A DNA stretch of 64,000 bases from Halobaculum halobium (GTDB lineage Archaea; Halobacteriota; Halobacteria; Halobacteriales; Haloferacaceae): NCBI RefSeq assembly GCF_030127145.1, contig NZ_CP126158.1, positions 1,674,001 through 1,738,000 on the forward strand, read 5' to 3'. The notes beneath the pieces are model-generated. The model was not told the DNA's origin, made no database searches, and saw only the letters and a program-made list of their open reading frames with translations. Below, piece by piece: positions 949 through 44,717 of the stretch (position 1 is the first letter of the stretch; each line of letters opens with the position of its first letter). The position numbers were made by a program, and so were the translations under genes.

Positions 949-3606
949 ATGCCCAGTGGGGATTACGACCCGGAGACCACAGAGCCCGAGTGGCAGCGGC
1001 GCTGGGTCGACCAGGAGACGTACGCGTACGACGAGGAGGCCGCGACCGATCCGAACACCGTCTTCTCCATCGATTCCCCGCCGCCGACGGTATCCGGCGA
1101 CCTCCACATGGGCCACCTGTACGGCTTTACCCTGCAGGACTTCGTCGCCCGCTTCGAGCGGATGAACGGCGAGACGACGTTCTTCCCGTTCGGCTACGAC
1201 GACAACGGCATCGCCTCAGAGCGGCTCACCGAAGACGAACTCGACATCCGCCACCAGGACTTCGAGCGCCGGGAGTTCCAGCGCAAGTGCCGCGAGGTGT
1301 GCGCTAACTACGAGGAGCAGTTCACCGAGAACATCCAGGGGCTGGGCGTCTCTGTCGACTGGAATCACACCTACCAGACGATCGAGCCGCGCACCCAGCG
1401 CATCTCGCAGCTCTCCTTTATCGACCTGTACGAGCAGGGCCGGGAGTACCGCGAGAAGGCGCCCGCGATCTGGTGTCCCGAGTGCGAGACGGCCATCTCG
1501 CAGGTCGAGACCGAAGACGATGAGCAGGACAGCCACTTCCACGACATCGCGTTCTCGGTTGCCGGAAGCGACGAGGACTTCACCATCTCGACGACGCGCC
1601 CGGAACTGCTTCCGGCGTGCGTCGCCGTCTTCGTCCACCCCGACGACGACGAGAACCAGCACCTCGTCGGCGAGTCCGCGGAGATCCCGCTGTTCGGTCA
1701 CGAGGTCCCGATCCTCGCGGACGAGAGCGTCGACATGGAGACCGGCTCGGGGATCGTCATGTGCTGTACGTTCGGCGACCAGAACGACATCGAGTGGTAC
1801 CAGATCCACGACCTGGACCTCCGCGTTGCCATCGACGAGTCCGGCCACATGACCGAGGTCGCCGAGGGGTACGAGGGGCTGCACTCCGCCGAGGCCGGCG
1901 AGGCCATCGTCGAGGACCTCGACGACGCCGGCGCGCTGCTGGACCGTCGCGCGATCACCCACACGGTGAACGTCCACGAGCGCTGCGGGACGAGCGTCGA
2001 GTTCCTCGTCACAGAGCAGTGGTACATCGAACTGCTCGACAAGGCCGACGAGTACCTCGAGGCCGGTCGGGAGATGGAGTGGTTCCCCGAGAAGATGTTC
2101 ACCCGATACGAGCACTGGGTCGAGGGCCTCCAGTGGGACTGGCTCATCTCTCGCCAGCGCTCCTCGGGGATCCCGTTCCCCGTCTGGTACTGCGCCGAGT
2201 GCGACGAGGAGATCATCGCCGAGAAGGCCGATCTCCCGGTCGACCCGCTGTCGGACGACCCGCCGGTCGACGCCTGTCCGGCGTGCGGCCACGACGAGTT
2301 CGCTCCCGAGGACGACGTGCTTGACACGTGGGCCACCTCCAGCCTGACGCCGCTCATCAACGCCGGCTGGGACTGGGACGACGAGGCGGAGGCGTTCACG
2401 ATGGAGCACCCGGAGCTGTACCAGTTCGACATGCGCCCGCAGGGCCACGACATCATCAGCTTCTGGCTGTTCCACACGGTCGTCAAGTGCTACGAGCACA
2501 CCGGGGAGGTTCCGTTCGACGAGACGCTCATCAACGGGATGGTGCTCGACGAGAACCGCGAGGCGATGTCGAAATCGAAGGGGAACGTCGTCCTTCCGCG
2601 GGAGGTGCTCGCCGAGTACCCCGTCGACGCCGCGCGCTTCTGGGCCGCCGGCTCCGCCATCGGCGACGACCTCCCGTACAACGAGAAGGGACTGCGCGCC
2701 GGCGAGAAACTGCTGCAGAAGCTGTGGAACGCGTCGAAGCTCGTCGAGTCGCTCGTCGGTGACGGGGCATCCGACGCTCGACCCGACCTCGACCACGGCG
2801 ACCTCCGGGAGCTCGACCGCTGGCTGCTCGCCGAGCTGGACGACCTCACCGAGACGCTCACTGGGCAACTCGAGCGCCGGGAGTTCTCCAAGGCGCGCGA
2901 CGACCTGCGCGGTTTCTTCTGGCACACGTTCTGCGACGACTACCTGGAGGTCGCGAAGACCCGCGTCCGGGAGGCCGAGGACGACGACCCCGCAGCCAGA
3001 TACACGCTGTCGGTCGCCCACGAGCGCTTCCTGAAGCTGTTCGCCCCGATGCTGGCACACGTCAGCGAGGAACTGTGGCAGGACATGTACGCCGAGGAGC
3101 GCGCGGGCGACGACTTCGACTCGATCCACCTGCGCGATTGGCCCGAGCCGCTGGGCGTCGATGCCGACCACGAAGCCGGCGTCGCCGCGATGTCGGTCGT
3201 CGGCGCGCTCCGGCGCTACAAGAGCGAGCGCGGCCTCCCGCTTAACGCCGCCATCGACCGCGTCGAGGTGTACGGCGAGGGTGAGCTGATCGCGTTCGCC
3301 GACGACGTTCGCGGCGTGATGAACGTCGGGGAACTGACCGTGCTCGACGAGGAGCCCGAGGTCGAGTCGGTGATCACGGGGATCGATCTCGACTACGCGC
3401 AGGTCGGCCCGCAGTACGGCGAGCAGGTCGGCGACATCGAGGCCGCGCTCGCGACCGAGGACTACGAGATCGTCGACGGGAAGCTCCACGTCGCCGGCGA
3501 GTCGCTCGGCGCGGACCTCTTCGAGGTTGAGCGCGAACGCCGCTACTCCGGCACCGGCGAGCTACTCCAGCCGGAGGACGCGGTCGTCATCGTCCACGAC
3601 GACTAG
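949..3606 (+). CDS. valS: Valyl-tRNA synthetase
   Basis: Class I aminoacyl-tRNA synthetase of 885 aa that charges tRNA-Val in the cytoplasm. The HIGH signature appears as HMGH (53-56) and KMSKS as AMSKS (539-543). CPEC, CAEC and CPAC pairs suggest zinc-binding inserts, and an editing domain lies between the catalytic halves. Length is normal for the archaeal enzyme. A gcttaaca TATA-like box near 917-924 is about 29 nt before the ATG, so the transcript is probably leaderless. Two small membrane-protein genes follow on the same strand. Confidence 0.97.
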   Translation: MPSGDYDPETTEPEWQRRWVDQETYAYDEEAATDPNTVFSIDSPPPTVSGDLHMGHLYGFTLQDFVARFERMNGETTFFPFGYDDNGIASERLTEDELDIRHQDFERREFQRKCREVCANYEEQFTENIQGLGVSVDWNHTYQTIEPRTQRISQLSFIDLYEQGREYREKAPAIWCPECETAISQVETEDDEQDSHFHDIAFSVAGSDEDFTISTTRPELLPACVAVFVHPDDDENQHLVGESAEIPLFGHEVPILADESVDMETGSGIVMCCTFGDQNDIEWYQIHDLDLRVAIDESGHMTEVAEGYEGLHSAEAGEAIVEDLDDAGALLDRRAITHTVNVHERCGTSVEFLVTEQWYIELLDKADEYLEAGREMEWFPEKMFTRYEHWVEGLQWDWLISRQRSSGIPFPVWYCAECDEEIIAEKADLPVDPLSDDPPVDACPACGHDEFAPEDDVLDTWATSSLTPLINAGWDWDDEAEAFTMEHPELYQFDMRPQGHDIISFWLFHTVVKCYEHTGEVPFDETLINGMVLDENREAMSKSKGNVVLPREVLAEYPVDAARFWAAGSAIGDDLPYNEKGLRAGEKLLQKLWNASKLVESLVGDGASDARPDLDHGDLRELDRWLLAELDDLTETLTGQLERREFSKARDDLRGFFWHTFCDDYLEVAKTRVREAEDDDPAARYTLSVAHERFLKLFAPMLAHVSEELWQDMYAEERAGDDFDSIHLRDWPEPLGVDADHEAGVAAMSVVGALRRYKSERGLPLNAAIDRVEVYGEGELIAFADDVRGVMNVGELTVLDEEPEVESVITGIDLDYAQVGPQYGEQVGDIEAALATEDYEIVDGKLHVAGESLGADLFEVERERRYSGTGELLQPEDAVVIVHDD

Positions 3607-3661
3607 AGAGCGCGCTCGCGTCGACCCCAACCGTCTTCTCGCCGCGGCCGGACCTCCACCC

Positions 3662-3931
3662 GTGAACAGACGTGCCCTCTCGCTGGGTGGCTTCGTTGCC
3701 GCCGGCGTCTCACAGACTCTCCTCGGCGTCGCCATGTACGCGAGCGGCGACACTCCCGCGAACCCGCTGTTCTCGGTGCTCGGCGGGGCGGTGGTTGCGG
3801 GCGTGTTCGCCCGCGCGCTCCTCCGCGGTGACGACCTGAACGGCCTCGCGACCCGCCCGCTGTTCGTCGCTGTCGGCGTCGCCGCCGGGATCGTCTCGAT
3901 CGTGCTCACCGCGGGGGTGCTTGTCGGGTGA
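3662..3931 (+). CDS. Small membrane protein, paralogue A
   Basis: An 89-aa protein starting at GTG 3662, 55 nt after valS. It has about three hydrophobic stretches separated by short loops and a central RGDDLNG segment. I do not recognise the family. It is clearly related to the next gene: both share an LSLGGF opening, a GV-Q motif, RG-DLNG and RP-F--VGVA-G. The stop TGA overlaps the next GTG start by 4 bp, so translation is likely coupled. Function unknown. Confidence 0.8.
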   Translation: MNRRALSLGGFVAAGVSQTLLGVAMYASGDTPANPLFSVLGGAVVAGVFARALLRGDDLNGLATRPLFVAVGVAAGIVSIVLTAGVLVG

Positions 3932-4200
3932 ATGCGGACGTGCGCGTCCTCTCGCTTGGCGGCTTCACACTCTCTGGCGTCTGTCAGATCGCACTCGCTG
4001 GGGTCGAGTTCGCCGGCGGCGCGCTCGTCGACGCCGGACTCTCCGCGCTCGTCGGCCTCGGTGTCCTGTGGATCTTCGGCCGCCCGCTGGTCCGCGGAGG
4101 CGACCTCAACGGGGTGGCTTCCCGTCCCATCTTCGCCATCGTCGGCGTCGCCCTCGGACTGGTCTCGGCGGCGGTCCTGTTGTACACGCTCGCCGGCTGA
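3928..4200 (+). CDS. Small membrane protein, paralogue B
   Basis: A 90-aa protein with GTG start inside the stop region of its upstream paralogue (GTGA overlap). It has three predicted hydrophobic segments and the loop RGGDLNGVASRP, matching RGDDLNGLATRP of paralogue A. The two genes look like a tandem duplication and may form a heteromer. No domain recognised. The gene ends 29 bp before the convergent pyrD gene. Confidence 0.8.
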   Translation: MNADVRVLSLGGFTLSGVCQIALAGVEFAGGALVDAGLSALVGLGVLWIFGRPLVRGGDLNGVASRPIFAIVGVALGLVSAAVLLYTLAG

Positions 4201-4229
4201 TCGACCGCACGTCCCGTCTGACCCGACGC

Positions 4230-5285
4230 TTACAGGTCCGCGCCGACCGCGTCGGCGACGGAGTCGAACCCGTCCCGTTCGAGCAACTCCAGCAGCCCTT
4301 CGTTGATCTCGCGCGCGAGACTCGGTCCTTCGTAGACGAGTCCGGTGTACAGCTGGACGAGACTCGCACCGCTTTTGATCTTCGCGTACGCGCCCGCGGC
4401 GTCGGAGACGCCGCCGACGCCGACCACCGGCACGTCCGTGCGCTCGGCGATGAACCGGACCATGCCAGTGGCGCGTTCCTCGATCGGCTTGCCCGAGAGA
4501 CCGCCCCGCTCGGCCTGTCGCGGGCTCCGGAGCGTCTCCGGGCGTTCGGTGGTGGTGTTCGTCGCGATGACCCCGTCGAGCTCCAGGTCGTCGACGACCG
4601 CGAGCGCCTCCTCGATCGCCGGCTCGGGCAGATCCGGGGAGAATTTCACGAGCAGCGGATCGGCGCCGGCGTCGGAGAGCGTGCCGAGAATCTGTTCCAG
4701 CGAGTCGCGGTTCTGGAGGGATCGGAGCCCGGGCGTGTTCGGGGAAGAGACGTTGACCGCGACGTAGTCCGCGTGCGCACCCACGCGCTCGTAGGTGTAC
4801 AGGTAGTCGTCGGCCGCTTCAGCCAGCGGCGTGGCCTTCGACTTCCCGATGTTGACACCGAGGGGGACCTCCGGCGCGGGCTCGCGGTCGAGGCGGTCGC
4901 CGACGCGGTCGGCCCCGTCGTTGTTGAAGCCCATGCGGTTGACGATGGCCTCGTCCTCGCGCAGGCGGAACATCCGCGGACGGGGATTTCCGGGCTGGCG
5001 CTCGGCAGTGACCCCGCCGACCTCGACGTGACCGAAGCCGAGCGCGGCGAGCGCGCGCGGGACGCGGGCGTTCTTGTCGAAGCCGGCAGCGACGCCGACG
5101 GGCGTGGGGAAGTCGACGCCGAACGCGTCCGTCTCCAGTCGCTCGTCGCCGACGGCGTATCGATCGCGGAGAAGCGATTGGATCGGCGTTCCCTGGACCG
5201 CCCGCAACAGTCGTTGGGTGGCCTCGTGGGCGGTTTCGGCGGGGAGTGCGTACAGCGCCGGCTTCGCGAAGTCGTATGCCCTCAT
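4230..5285 (-). CDS. pyrD: Dihydroorotate dehydrogenase (quinone), class 2
   Basis: Oxidises dihydroorotate to orotate in pyrimidine synthesis, using FMN and passing electrons to quinone at the membrane. Class 2 features are an N-terminal helical extension (MRAYDFAKPALYALP), AAGFDKNA for FMN, and NVSSPNTPGL with the catalytic Ser of class 2 rather than the Cys of class 1. The start at 5285 gives 351 aa, normal for the class; a longer start at 5339 adds an unlikely 18-residue tail. The AbrB-like gene lies 60 bp upstream on the same strand. Confidence 0.95.
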   Translation of the reverse strand: MRAYDFAKPALYALPAETAHEATQRLLRAVQGTPIQSLLRDRYAVGDERLETDAFGVDFPTPVGVAAGFDKNARVPRALAALGFGHVEVGGVTAERQPGNPRPRMFRLREDEAIVNRMGFNNDGADRVGDRLDREPAPEVPLGVNIGKSKATPLAEAADDYLYTYERVGAHADYVAVNVSSPNTPGLRSLQNRDSLEQILGTLSDAGADPLLVKFSPDLPEPAIEEALAVVDDLELDGVIATNTTTERPETLRSPRQAERGGLSGKPIEERATGMVRFIAERTDVPVVGVGGVSDAAGAYAKIKSGASLVQLYTGLVYEGPSLAREINEGLLELLERDGFDSVADAVGADL

Positions 5286-5345
5286 TGCGGTACTTGGCCG
5301 TGTCTCAGACCGGGCAGACTCTTGAACTGCGGGGATCACCCGGTG

Positions 5346-5543
5346 TCAGAAGTCGTGTTCTACCTCGTCGGGGTCCGCTTTCTGGATAATGATCTTGCCG
5401 TCTCGGACGCGAACGAACACCTCGTCACCGATCTCCATGCCGGCGACTGCGAGCTCGTCCTCGTGCAGGTTCACGTGGACGTTGTGGTACTCGCCGTTCT
5501 CGTCTTTGGCGCCACTCGGGCTGAGCGTCTTCTTCCGGACCAT
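5346..5543 (-). CDS. AbrB/SpoVT-like small protein
   Basis: A 65-aa protein. The segment VNLHEDELAVAGMEIGDEVF followed by VRVRDGKIIIQKA has the pattern of a swapped-hairpin AbrB/SpoVT domain, which usually binds DNA as a dimer. Start at ATG 5543 is preferred over GTG 5579 because a cttatg TATA-like element at about 5580-5587 would place the transcript start near 5553. It may be co-transcribed with pyrD. Its target is unknown. Confidence 0.7.
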   Translation of the reverse strand: MVRKKTLSPSGAKDENGEYHNVHVNLHEDELAVAGMEIGDEVFVRVRDGKIIIQKADPDEVEHDF

Positions 5544-6700: not shown

Positions 6701-8172
<1,472 letters not shown>

Positions 8173-37229: not shown

Positions 37230-37321
37230 ACGGGGACTTCGTCGGCGCGGAGGAAAAACCGCGGCGACTCTTCGAGTCGCACGCGCAACATACATCCGTC
37301 CACACGGCCGAACTCGTGGTA

Positions 37322-40920: not shown

Positions 40921-41928
40921 CTAGGGCACGCGGCCGAACAGGTCCCGGTTCCGGGCGACGTACCGCAGCGACCCTCGACCCAGTTGTTCCTCCCGCGTCT
41001 CCGCCCAGTCGGCCAGCGTCGCCGCCGGCACCCGCTCCGACGCGCGCACCGACGCGACCACCGTGTCCAGGATGGTCCGGAGAAACGTCGCCTCGTCGGC
41101 CCGGTACGTCCCCGCCTCGTTGCCCTCGACCGTCCAGTCGGAGCGCGCGTCGACCGTCGGCGGCGTTCCGGCCTCGGTGAACCGGTCGGCCAGCCGCGTC
41201 GCCGCTCGTCCCCGGTTGCGCATCGTCGCGTGGAACGCGTCGACGACGGCGTCGTCGGCCGGGTGGTCGGGCGCGAACCGCGTCTCGCCGTCGAAGGTGA
41301 GCGGGAGGTGGTACCAGCCGTCCGGCGCGGCCGAGCGCAGCAGCGCGAGCACGTCCTCGGGAGCCAACAGATCCGCGAACGACCGCGCAACGACGCCGTC
41401 GAAACCGCCCTCGGCGGCGACTGCGCGGGCGTCGGCGACCGCGAACCGGACACGGAGGGACCGCGCACACCCGGGACGGCGCAGTTCGATCGCGTCGCTG
41501 TCGCGGTAACCGCTGCTGTCGCCGTCGCTGTCGCGGTAGCTGCCACCGTTGCCGACGCGGTTACCGTCAGCGTCACCTCGCTCGACGGCGTAGCCGGCGT
41601 CGAGCGCGTCCGCACGCAGGCGATCGTGCGCCGTCGACAGCACCCGCTCGTCCGTGTCGACGGCGACCCACTCGCCCGCGGGGAGCACATCGTCGGCCAG
41701 CAGCCGGCGGAGCATCCCGCAGGTCCCGGCGCCGGCCTCCAACACGCGGACGCCGGTTCCGTCCGTCCCGTCGCTCTCGTCGCCACGGTCGCCGTCGTCG
41801 GTATCCCCGTCGCCGGCGTGATCCGCCTCCCGAAGGGCCGCTCGAAACGCGGCGGTCGCATCGTCGCTGTGAGCGCGTTCGTCGACGGTCCGGGCGGCCT
41901 CCAGGTACGTCACGTCGTCACCCTCCAT
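40921..41928 (-). CDS. SAM-dependent methyltransferase
   Basis: 335 aa. VLEAGAGTCGMLRRLLADD is SAM motif I, followed by AVDTDERVL (motif II) and a FDGVVARSFADLL stretch (motif IV). A low-complexity Asp/Gly/Ser insert lies near residues 150-175. It overlaps the end of the glycosyltransferase gene by 11 bp and is the third gene of the pterin-synthase operon. Substrate unknown; the context suggests a pterin, sugar or lipid product of its neighbours. Confidence 0.85.
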   Translation of the reverse strand: MEGDDVTYLEAARTVDERAHSDDATAAFRAALREADHAGDGDTDDGDRGDESDGTDGTGVRVLEAGAGTCGMLRRLLADDVLPAGEWVAVDTDERVLSTAHDRLRADALDAGYAVERGDADGNRVGNGGSYRDSDGDSSGYRDSDAIELRRPGCARSLRVRFAVADARAVAAEGGFDGVVARSFADLLAPEDVLALLRSAAPDGWYHLPLTFDGETRFAPDHPADDAVVDAFHATMRNRGRAATRLADRFTEAGTPPTVDARSDWTVEGNEAGTYRADEATFLRTILDTVVASVRASERVPAATLADWAETREEQLGRGSLRYVARNRDLFGRVP

Positions 41929-43026
41929 CGGCCACCTCCGCGAGGAACCGCCGGACGTCGGCGACCGTGGCGGCCCAGTCGGGATGGGACTCGAACCGCC
42001 GGAGCGCGGCCGTCCCCATCCGGGCCAGTCGGTCGCGATCTCCCGCGAGCGCGGCGATGGCGTCCCGGACGCCCGCCACGTCGCCCGGATCGACGAGGAA
42101 GCCGGTCTCGCCGTCGGCGACGACCGTCGACGCGCCTCCGGCGGCGGACGCGACCGCCGGGAGGCCAAAGCCCATCCCCTCCAGGTACGCCATCCCGAAG
42201 CCCTCGTAGGAGGAGGGGACCGCGAGCACGTGCGACTCCCCGAGCACGGCCGCGAGGTCTGACGTCGAGAGCTCGCCGCGGAACGACACGCGCTCCTCGA
42301 CGTCGAGGTCGGCGGCCAGGCTCCGAACCGTGCGGGCGTGATCCGGGTCCGGCTCCGGGCCGACGACGGTCGCCGTCCAACCGCGCTCGTCGTCGACGCC
42401 GGCGAGCGCCCGCACCAGTGTCGGATGCCCCTTCCGCGGCACCAGCGACCCGAGCGAGACGACTCGGAGCGGCCCCTCCCGAGCGCGATCGGTCACATCC
42501 GCCGGCGTCACCGTCGGGTCGAACTGGTCGGCCGGCGGCGGCGCGACGTGCGTGGCGAGGTCATCGACGAGCGACAACACGTCGCGCTCAGTCGCCTCGC
42601 TGACGCAGACGGCCGCGGCACAGCCACGAACGAAGTGTCGTTCCAGTCGCGTCGCGACCGGCGCGAGCCGGCCGCCCTCGGCGCGCCGGAGGTGGTGCAC
42701 CAGCGCGACGACCGGCGTCCCGCCGCGGCGGAGCCGGCGGATGAGCCCAGCGTGGCGGCGTGCGCGAGTTCGTCGACGACGACCACGTCCGCGTCTCGGA
42801 GTCCGGTCGGCACCCCGGTCGCGAGCCCCGGCGCATCGAGGAGCCCGAGCGGGTACCGTCGCCACGGCACCGAGAACACCCGGACCGACACGCCGGTCGC
42901 CCGCAGTCGGCCGACGAGCCGGCGGTCGTATCGGAACCCTCCGGACGTCGTCTCGGGGTCGCCCGGGAGGACGAGCGCGACCGCGAGGCCGTCAGCGTCG
43001 ACGCCGGCGGACGCCCCCTCAGCCAT
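41918..43026 (-). pseudogene. GT4 glycosyltransferase, frameshifted
   Basis: The N-terminal part (MAEGASAGVDADGLAVALVL, from ATG 43026) reads in one frame to about 42745 (DELAHAATLG); the rest (LIRRLRRGGTPVVALVHH onward) continues in another frame to the TGA at 41918. Adding one base near 42740-42750 restores a 369-aa GT4 enzyme with GSLVPRKGH, PSSYEGFGMAYLEGMGFGLP (the E-x7-E nucleotide-sugar site) and a C-terminal Rossmann half. It may be a sequencing slip or a real inactivation. Its ATG overlaps the pterin synthase stop. Confidence 0.82.
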
Positions 43027-43483
43027 CCCCGTGTTCTGGGCCCGCAGCGTCGTCGTCGCGGCCCGTGGTGCCGTCGGATCCGCCGTTGCCGGTCTCCTCG
43101 ACGCCGACGGGTCCCTCGTAGCCGGCGGCGGCCTCGTCGTCCTCCCACACGGTGACGCGCAGGCTCTCTGCCGGGTCGTCGTCGGCGGCCGGGGCGAGCC
43201 GGTCGTGGACGACGCGAGCGAACCGCTCGACGCTCGGGTTGTACCCATCGAACTCGGGCAGGTCGTTCAGCGTCGCGTCGCGGTAGCGCTCCTCGACGGC
43301 GTCGAGCGCCGCGCGCACGTCGTCGATGTCGACGAGGTAGTCGTAGTCGTTCAGCGACGGGCCGGCGAACGTCACCTCGACCGAGAACACGTGCGAGTGG
43401 AGGTCCCCCTCGGGACCCGGGTCGGGGACGGTGAGGAAGTGCTGTGCGACGAACTGCCGCGAGACGGTCGTTCGATAGGTCAT
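43019..43483 (-). CDS. 6-pyruvoyl-tetrahydropterin synthase-family protein, variant active site
   Basis: 154 aa. Zinc ligands H15, H29 and H31 (AQHFL, LHSH) and the pterin-binding E86 (NPSVE) are present, as is LND. The catalytic Cys four residues before the first His of the HxH pair is E25, and the LDH motif reads YRDA, so the His is lost. Glu at the Cys place is a mark of PTPS-III enzymes, which feed folate synthesis, rather than QueD. An acidic tail follows about residue 130. First gene of an operon with a GT4 enzyme and a methyltransferase. Confidence 0.85.
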   Translation of the reverse strand: MTYRTTVSRQFVAQHFLTVPDPGPEGDLHSHVFSVEVTFAGPSLNDYDYLVDIDDVRAALDAVEERYRDATLNDLPEFDGYNPSVERFARVVHDRLAPAADDDPAESLRVTVWEDDEAAAGYEGPVGVEETGNGGSDGTTGRDDDAAGPEHGDG

Positions 43484-43682: not shown

Positions 43683-44237
43683 TCACCCGACCAACTCCTC
43701 GACGACCGGCGGGAGCCGGCGGCGGACGAGCGCGTACGCGACGCCGAGGACGACGCAGGCGGCGGCGATCGCCGGCAGCGGCTCCGGATACGCCACGGCG
43801 ACCGGGACCGCGAGCGCCGCCGTCGCGACGGCGTCCTCCGGGGCGCCGTCGTAGCGGATCCAGTATCGTGGGCGGATCCATCGACCGCGGAGGTGATCGT
43901 AGACGGCCTCGGCGGAGGTGCGCTCCCACGGCCGGATCTCGTCGCCGGCACCGAGAGCGTCCGTCCCGGCGTGGACGGCGAAAGAGGTGCAGGCGACCGC
44001 CGCCGCGGCGGTTCCGGCCGTCGGCGCGACTGCGGCGGCGGCGATCGCTGGGAGCGCCAGCGCCCACCCCACCACGGGGAAGTGCAGCGTCCGGCGGTGG
44101 CGACCGGCGAACAGGTCGAGGTCGGGCAGGAGGCCCCCGACCACCCCCGCGAGCGCGGCGGGAACGGCGAACTCGGGTGCGAACGCGACCACGGGCGCCG
44201 CTAGCACCGCGCCCGCAAGGGCGTGGGTGAACGCCAT
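43683..44237 (-). CDS. YdjM/DUF457-type membrane-bound metal hydrolase
   Basis: 184 aa with about four membrane helices. MAFTHALAGAVLAAP and GLLPDLDLFAGRHRRTLHFP give the conserved His and Asp residues of the YdjM (LexA-binding, inner-membrane hydrolase-like) family. The GTG three bases earlier (44240) is an alternative start. It begins a few bases after the stop of the upstream membrane-protein gene, so they form a pair. Confidence 0.83.
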   Translation of the reverse strand: MAFTHALAGAVLAAPVVAFAPEFAVPAALAGVVGGLLPDLDLFAGRHRRTLHFPVVGWALALPAIAAAAVAPTAGTAAAAVACTSFAVHAGTDALGAGDEIRPWERTSAEAVYDHLRGRWIRPRYWIRYDGAPEDAVATAALAVPVAVAYPEPLPAIAAACVVLGVAYALVRRRLPPVVEELVG

Positions 44238-44243
44238 CACGGC

Positions 44244-44618
44244 CTACGACTCGCGACGGTAGAGGACGACGAGGACGGCGATGAGGACCACCTGCACCAC
44301 CTTGTCCGCGATCCCGGTCGCGCCGAAGTCGGGCGCGTTCGCCACGTACCACAGCGGGATCTGCCCGGCGGTGAACGGGATGCCGAGCAGGTAAAAGAGG
44401 CGGCGACGGGTGTCGAGCAGCACCGCCGCGACGCCGCCCAGGAAGCCGACGCCCGCAACTAGGAACGCGACGGCCATCCCGGTCTCCGAGCTGAACGCGT
44501 ACGCGAGCCAGAGGTGGATCACGCCGGTGATCGCCGCCAGCGCGACGCCGAACCAGTGTAGTCCGGTCATCGACTCCGTGTGGAGGGAGAACCCCTCGGA
44601 CGCTGTTTCGGTACTCAT
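44244..44618 (-). CDS. Four-helix membrane protein, unknown
   Basis: 124 aa with four membrane helices; LHWFGVALAAITGVIHLWLA and FLGGVAAVLLDTRRRLFYLL are typical of an uncharacterised haloarchaeal membrane family. ATG 44618 is preceded by a gtttttaac TATA-like element at about 44643-44651. It pairs with the YdjM-type gene downstream. No function known. Confidence 0.78.
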   Translation of the reverse strand: MSTETASEGFSLHTESMTGLHWFGVALAAITGVIHLWLAYAFSSETGMAVAFLVAGVGFLGGVAAVLLDTRRRLFYLLGIPFTAGQIPLWYVANAPDFGATGIADKVVQVVLIAVLVVLYRRES

Positions 44619-44717
44619 ACCCGTACAGATGGCGGGGACCGTGTTAAAAACTCCCACGACCGTTGCCACGTGATCGCCTCCGATCCGGCGGGAGACGTCA
44701 GTCGAGCGGGCGGCGGC

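Follow-up and report, generated by a model that had tools for sequence, protein, structure and literature searches.

Which pathway is served by three overlapping genes of Halobaculum halobium that encode a PTPS-like enzyme, a GT4-type glycosyltransferase and a class I SAM-dependent methyltransferase (MT)? The operon was analysed in a window of 64,000 nucleotides, the whole stretch of DNA considered, and its features are listed in Table 1. A previous reading made from the sequence only had proposed a pathway for a glycosylated and methylated pterin, with a plain folate role of the synthase as the alternative. Both overlaps that it described were confirmed; the span 41918–43483 that it assigned to all three genes contains only those for PTPS and GT4, and the MT gene lies outside of it. 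The position of the YdjM-like gene upstream of PTPS is kept in congeners; its product is a putative pathway member. In other haloarchaea, the neighbouring DUF7475 relative is again encountered close to PTPS and a CDP-alcohol phosphotransferase.

Table 1. Features of the operon and of its upstream neighbours, with positions counted from the first nucleotide of the window.
Feature	Position	Strand	Basis
PTPS-like enzyme, COG0720/PF01242, E25xxxH29SH31 motif, 154 aa	43019..43483	(-)	Pfam E 1.3e-26
GT4-type glycosyltransferase gene, frameshifted here	41918..43026	(-)	Pfam PF00534/PF13692
Class I SAM-dependent methyltransferase (MT), Methyltransf_25-like, 335 aa	40921..41928	(-)	Pfam
Overlap of PTPS stop and GT4 start, 8 bp	43019..43026	(-)	Read from sequence
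Overlap of GT4 stop and MT start, 11 bp	41918..41928	(-)	Read from sequence
Site of 1-nt deletion in GT4 versus nine congeners	42745..42758	(-)	DNA alignment
Small YdjM-like protein 5' of PTPS; YdjM match weak, below cut-off	43683..44240	(-)	
DUF7475 membrane-protein relative	44244..44669	(-)	DUF7475 named on homologue from another locus

The GT4 gene is distributed over two reading frames, with residues 1–94 in one frame and the remainder in another, the frame changing near 42748–42751. Alignment of the DNA revealed one nucleotide fewer at the break than in nine congeners. The gene is a single frame in most congeners: seven copies are open, and two more Halobaculum-type copies, from Halobaculum litoreum and a Halobaculum-like MAG, carry frameshifting indels at other sites. 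Since each of the three disrupted Halobaculum-type copies is broken at a site of its own, programmed frameshifting was rejected and loss or sequencing error retained as the explanation. GT4 appears broken in the window genome, and it is probably undergoing loss in the genus Halobaculum or hit by sequencing errors. Within the window, this break is the one backed by several congeners. Another possible frame change, in a conserved gene at approximately 37230–37270, was seen against one congener only.

The PTPS-like protein matches the PF01242 profile over the whole domain (93 bits against a cut-off of 22.4) and is the sole member of this family in the window genome. Residues E25, H15, H29, H31 and E114 do not vary among 16 relatives. 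Within the family, H15, H29 and H31 correspond to the zinc-ligand triad and E114 to the C-terminal pterin-anchoring Glu; with both elements retained, the protein belongs to the PTPS superfamily. Alignment to PDB 4ntk confirmed the earlier statement that a Glu replaces the catalytic Cys and that the His of the 'LDH' motif is gone: Glu25 occupies the position of the QueD Cys (E25-x-x-x-H29-S-H31 versus CxxxHGH), and R68-D69 stands in place of the QueD Asp-His.

These residues bear on the usual database name of the protein, according to which it would be the QueD of archaeosine synthesis. Records annotate it as '6-carboxytetrahydropterin synthase', and the window genome offers no second PF01242 protein for that role. 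The PF01242 fold family and the zinc-ligand His residues are indeed common to QueD (PTPS-I) and the window-type protein, but the latter has neither the catalytic Cys nor the Asp-His, and QueD is a separate haloarchaeal gene. A congener carries such a CxxxHGH QueD beside queE and queC, and many genomes of the family hold two PF01242 copies of two kinds. In the tree, QueD is placed opposite all cluster PTPS (support 91/86), and the NCBIfam QueD model scores the protein at 44.5, far below its cut-off of 89.25. The QueD assignment was rejected on the strength of the separate QueD in congeners, and we find it barely credible. In the window genome (region 528500–540500, approximately 5335–5507 therein, compared with 2914–5092 at the congener's locus), queC has no adjoining queE or queD, unlike in the congener, and no further QueD-type PF01242 protein was found in the window genome, in which de novo synthesis of the archaeosine precursor looks incomplete.

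A plain folate role, with the protein acting as a FolB substitute of the PTPS-III/VI type among unrelated neighbours, could be argued from the active-site Glu, which is typical of folate-type PTPS-III (motif ExxHGH), and from the statement that PTPS-VI is a folate enzyme (PMC5041015). Here, however, the Glu is located four residues before the first His and not three, and the motif reads ExxxHSH. The window genome also encodes MptD (PF04038, 131 bits), which covers the folate aldolase step, the function of COG2098/MptD. The PTPS gene, in turn, has no match in several nearly complete haloarchaeal genomes and bears a frameshift in Haloarcula marismortui, and none of the inspected haloarchaeal neighbours was identified as a folate gene. 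The folate assignment was rejected in view of MptD in the window genome; with PTPS being dispensable as well, the alternative of the earlier reading is largely refuted and highly improbable. Ordinary roles of either kind, in folate or as QueD, are unlikely for this protein.

Among the subfamilies of COG0720, PTPS-IV (PMC5041015, PMC5445326) has a genomic tie to RibA (PF00925) and RibD_C (PF01872), and shares with the haloarchaeal protein a G-P at the same position ahead of the HxH motif. The haloarchaeal protein was nevertheless kept out of PTPS-IV, for which an F420 role was proposed as unpublished, because it carries PGPEG instead of the signature FGPAQ. Its best sequence match in the PDB was 3d7j, SCO6650 of Streptomyces coelicolor (E 1.2e-12), deposited as an uncharacterised protein. 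A gene 92% identical to that of SCO6650 is located on a Streptomyces plasmid between a zinc-type oxidoreductase gene (MDR) and GT4-MT, together with RibA and creatininase. The bacterial copies of the SCO6650 type display FGPAQ..HGA, with E25 and one of the zinc ligands lost, whereas the haloarchaeal PTPS retains E25 and the three His. Judged by the published motifs (PMC5041015, PMC5445326), the bacterial cluster proteins fall into PTPS-IV, and their reaction may differ from the haloarchaeal one given the lost residues.

A PTPS match was obtained for 134 of the 148 genomes sampled from the family; the 14 without a match include several that are nearly complete. Gene neighbourhoods were compared at 80 named haloarchaeal loci that were selected by PTPS similarity and not at random, so the linkage counts describe close relatives. 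MDR lies directly upstream of PTPS at 65 of 77 loci, GT4 comes next after PTPS at 51 of 78, and MT is found within 2.4 kb at 51 of 76. Downstream of PTPS, GT4 and MT occur together at 32 loci, GT4 only at 17 and MT only at 19, with neither on that strand at 8. ArfA (GTP cyclohydrolase III) is encoded within 6 kb in 42/80 loci and a CDP-alcohol phosphotransferase in 36/80. In Haloferax, arfA, MDR, PTPS and GT4 are consecutive, and in Haloarcula a creatininase and a CDP-alcohol phosphotransferase accompany MDR-PTPS-GT4-MT. In the window genome, the MDR orthologue is located far from the operon and ArfA likewise elsewhere; neither RibA, RibD_C nor ArfA adjoins the PTPS copy of the window. On pNG700 of Haloarcula marismortui ATCC 43049 (L167, approximately 8030–8070), the cluster PTPS shows a 1-nt deletion inside the HSH motif. 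A second record of the strain gave the same shortened match, and the copy of Haloarcula sinaiiensis is intact.

The gene order returns in archaea outside the haloarchaeal family. At one locus (L149), MT, GTP cyclohydrolase II (RibA), MDR, PTPS and GT4 follow each other in a row; at another (L148, 1990–3720), a GTP cyclohydrolase II-MDR fusion of 577 aa precedes PTPS and GT4; and at a third (L150), GT4 accompanies MDR and PTPS, with a CDP-alcohol phosphotransferase in the vicinity. An MDR-PTPS-GT4-MT cluster of haloarchaeal type was also noted on a contig with the title 'uncultured Bacteroidetes bacterium', which probably reflects a binning error.

The same order was encountered in bacteria, in plasmid records. 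The Streptomyces fungicidicus plasmid reads CDP-alcohol phosphotransferase-MDR-PTPS-GT4-MT-creatininase-RibA. MDR-PTPS-GT4-MT is followed by RibD and a CDP-alcohol phosphotransferase on a Thiodictyon plasmid and by RibD on a Methylosinus plasmid, stands beside CDP-alcohol phosphotransferase-RibA and ahead of RibD on an Agrobacterium plasmid, and occurs in the same order on a Microbacterium plasmid. Neorhizobium has a dehydrogenase, PTPS, a GT and a hypothetical protein at the corresponding places. The cluster of a Rhodobacteraceae strain is devoid of GT4, and two Streptomyces plasmids harbour PTPS without the module neighbours. The proteins of haloarchaea and bacteria are homologous, as indicated by hhalign for PTPS (E 3e-13), GT4 (E 4e-26) and MT (E 2e-16) and by blastp for MDR (E 1e-42 or better). 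The three genes are thus kept together, as the sequence-only reading required, and with an order conserved in haloarchaea and bacteria the grouping of PTPS, GT4 and MT is more than chance. The RibA/RibD_C neighbourhood that is a trait of PTPS-IV was found for the module at L148 and L149 and in Streptomyces, Agrobacterium and Methylosinus; in haloarchaeal loci, ArfA takes its place. The cluster RibD proteins consist of the reductase domain only, which would allow a pterin to keep its 2-amino group. The RibA of the Streptomyces cluster (L163, 14476–15135) has a Met (RAMALQ) where archaeal copies have Tyr. A change of this Tyr-to-Met type in S. coelicolor SCO6655 reportedly halts the enzyme at FAPy, as produced by ArfA, and a creatininase neighbour would be in keeping with that.

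With ArfA, RibA, RibD and creatininase as neighbours, the cluster could also supply riboflavin or F420 (or FO), with PTPS and MDR acting on FAPy or diaminopyrimidine intermediates and GT4 and MT as add-ons of other function. Deletion of HVO_1284 (arfA) in Haloferax leads to riboflavin auxotrophy (PMC8305020), and PTPS-IV was stated, as unpublished, to act in F420 (PMC5041015). Yet GT4 and MT, needless for the riboflavin or F420 core, accompany PTPS across domains, and the haloarchaeal protein does not carry the exact PTPS-IV signature. Riboflavin is needed by all, whereas PTPS is dispensable, as judged from the family genomes without a match. The module occurs moreover in alphaproteobacteria not known for F420. 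Supply of riboflavin or F420, one of the two leading alternatives along with a surface glycolipid, is considered unlikely.

The proposed tie of GT4 to the cyanobacterial pterin glucosyltransferases did not hold. The structure was examined in an AF2 model of the orthologue of a congener (L033; pLDDT 88), and its GT-B fold together with the GT4 Pfam domains places the protein in the GT4 family. The nearest folds in the PDB were sucrose-phosphate synthase, MshA and BshA (Z 36–33), while the BH4 glucosyltransferases (BGluT) ranked lower (Z 30.4 and 27.9). The same was observed by sequence, with 127.7 bits for other GT4s against 67 bits for BGluT-type pteridine glycosyltransferases. BGluT, PgtA and CtPGT (cyanobacterial/Chlorobium) share a related GT-B fold, and BGluT structures are among the matches, but enzymes of this type are the closest GT4s neither by sequence nor by fold, and orthology to BGluT was rejected. 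The tree, in which branches are long and other GT4s few, did not unite the module GT4s in a single supported clade. Because the nearest folds are sucrose-phosphate synthase, MshA and BshA, a small soluble acceptor would fit the model; a pterin is a candidate acceptor.

The MT was assigned to class I with 30.3 bits to Methyltransf_25 (cut-off 27). It possesses a family-specific C-terminal region with an 'SDW' motif that is common to the MTs of the bacterial clusters. Its AF2 model (pLDDT 87) superimposes on 3mgg with Z 17.7 and an rmsd of 3.9 over 235 aligned residues; this comparison indicates the general class I fold only and gave no hint of the substrate.

PimB, HepE and TarM were also among the fold neighbours of GT4, and could point to a cell-surface glycolipid or phosphoglycan, with GT4 and the CDP-alcohol phosphotransferase acting on lipids and a PTPS relative co-opted for some unconnected step. 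The phosphotransferase is frequent in haloarchaeal and bacterial clusters, and genes for LPG_synthase_TM or flippase-like proteins and MdoH are found beside some of the latter. However, the top neighbours of GT4 are small-molecule enzymes, and GTP cyclohydrolase, RibD and a PTPS with retained pterin-site residues would have no place in a plain glycolipid pathway, so that this explanation is quite unlikely.

In our judgement, the operon is probably, though by no means certainly, the tailoring part of a widespread pathway that converts a GTP-derived ring compound to a decorated pterin-like metabolite. From the gene content, order, conservation, paralogy and motifs observed, we infer the reactions, their order and the product as follows. 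GTP would be opened by GTP cyclohydrolase III (ArfA) or II (RibA) to a diaminopyrimidine ribosyl phosphate, a starting point suggested by the recurrence of both cyclohydrolases, creatininase and reductase-only RibD as neighbours. A creatininase-type enzyme would deformylate FAPy wherever it arises, and in the bacterial clusters the sugar could be reduced by the reductase-only RibD. MDR and the zinc-site PTPS-like enzyme are the candidate core pair for a ring or side-chain step, in which Glu25 may serve as acid/base in place of the Cys/Asp-His of QueD. GT4 would then add a sugar and MT a methyl group, both optionally, and the often present CDP-alcohol phosphotransferase may attach a phospho-group. 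In the window genome, the product may be unglycosylated since GT4 looks inactivated.

The case for such a product rests on several observations. With the QueD assignment discarded and PTPS not needed for folate, the pathway would most naturally end in a pterin-like compound that carries a sugar, a methyl group or both. The same module, with homologous proteins, is present in archaea and bacteria; the GTP cyclohydrolase II-MDR fusion, the RibA-MDR-PTPS-GT4 row and the ArfA linkage connect it to GTP; and PTPS keeps the zinc ligands and the pterin-anchoring Glu. Several facts weigh against it: the higher scores of GT4 against small-molecule or sugar GT4s than against BH4 glucosyltransferases, the many loci that miss GT4 or MT, the distant MDR orthologue in the window genome, the choice of loci by PTPS similarity, the scatter of the module GT4s over more than one supported clade or none, and the loss of E25 and one zinc ligand in bacterial PTPS. 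Of the pathway originally put forward, the conserved gene set and a PTPS that is neither QueD nor needed for folate stand; the argument from GT4 fails, and 'glycosylated and methylated' does not hold as a rule, GT4 and MT each being optional. The MDR partner, the link to GTP cyclohydrolase II/III, the bacterial counterparts and the GT4 frameshift had been missed. The cyclohydrolase link suggests FAPy/diaminopyrimidine chemistry and not just dihydroneopterin.

Phosphorylated and sulfated halopterins (phosphohalopterin and sulfohalopterin) were reportedly obtained from halobacteria in work of the 1980s; the literature searched does not name them. Solfapterin of Sulfolobus was described by Lin & White in 1988 (reference 137 of PMC3546692). 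A glycosylated pterin, which the earlier reading did not know from haloarchaea, has a precedent in this solfapterin (neopterin 2-amino-2-deoxyglucoside, isolated 1988), a pterin glycoside of archaeal origin, as the product proposed for the module would be. It stems from another archaeal lineage than the haloarchaea, and no genes tied to it were found in the literature searched. Nor was a description of the combined gene cluster found there; the gene order that haloarchaea share with actinobacteria and proteobacteria identifies a pathway for which that literature reports no product. A variant of the scheme, which we regard as decidedly speculative, would lead to a membrane-anchored or phosphodiester-linked pterin glycoside common to archaea and bacteria, a cofactor or pigment class undescribed so far. 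Here MDR and the PTPS relative would turn the diaminopyrimidine from GTP cyclohydrolase II/III into an N8-polyol (ribityl-like) pterin by ring closure; glycosylation and methylation would follow, after which the CDP-alcohol phosphotransferase would join a phospho-alcohol or lipid. If the pterin-like product holds true, a large subgroup of COG0720 that is now publicly annotated as QueD would be accounted for, and the unassigned SCO6650-type structure would gain a use. The question of the archaeal pterin glycoside would become testable in Haloferax, where arfA, MDR, PTPS and GT4 lie together and genetics is easy.
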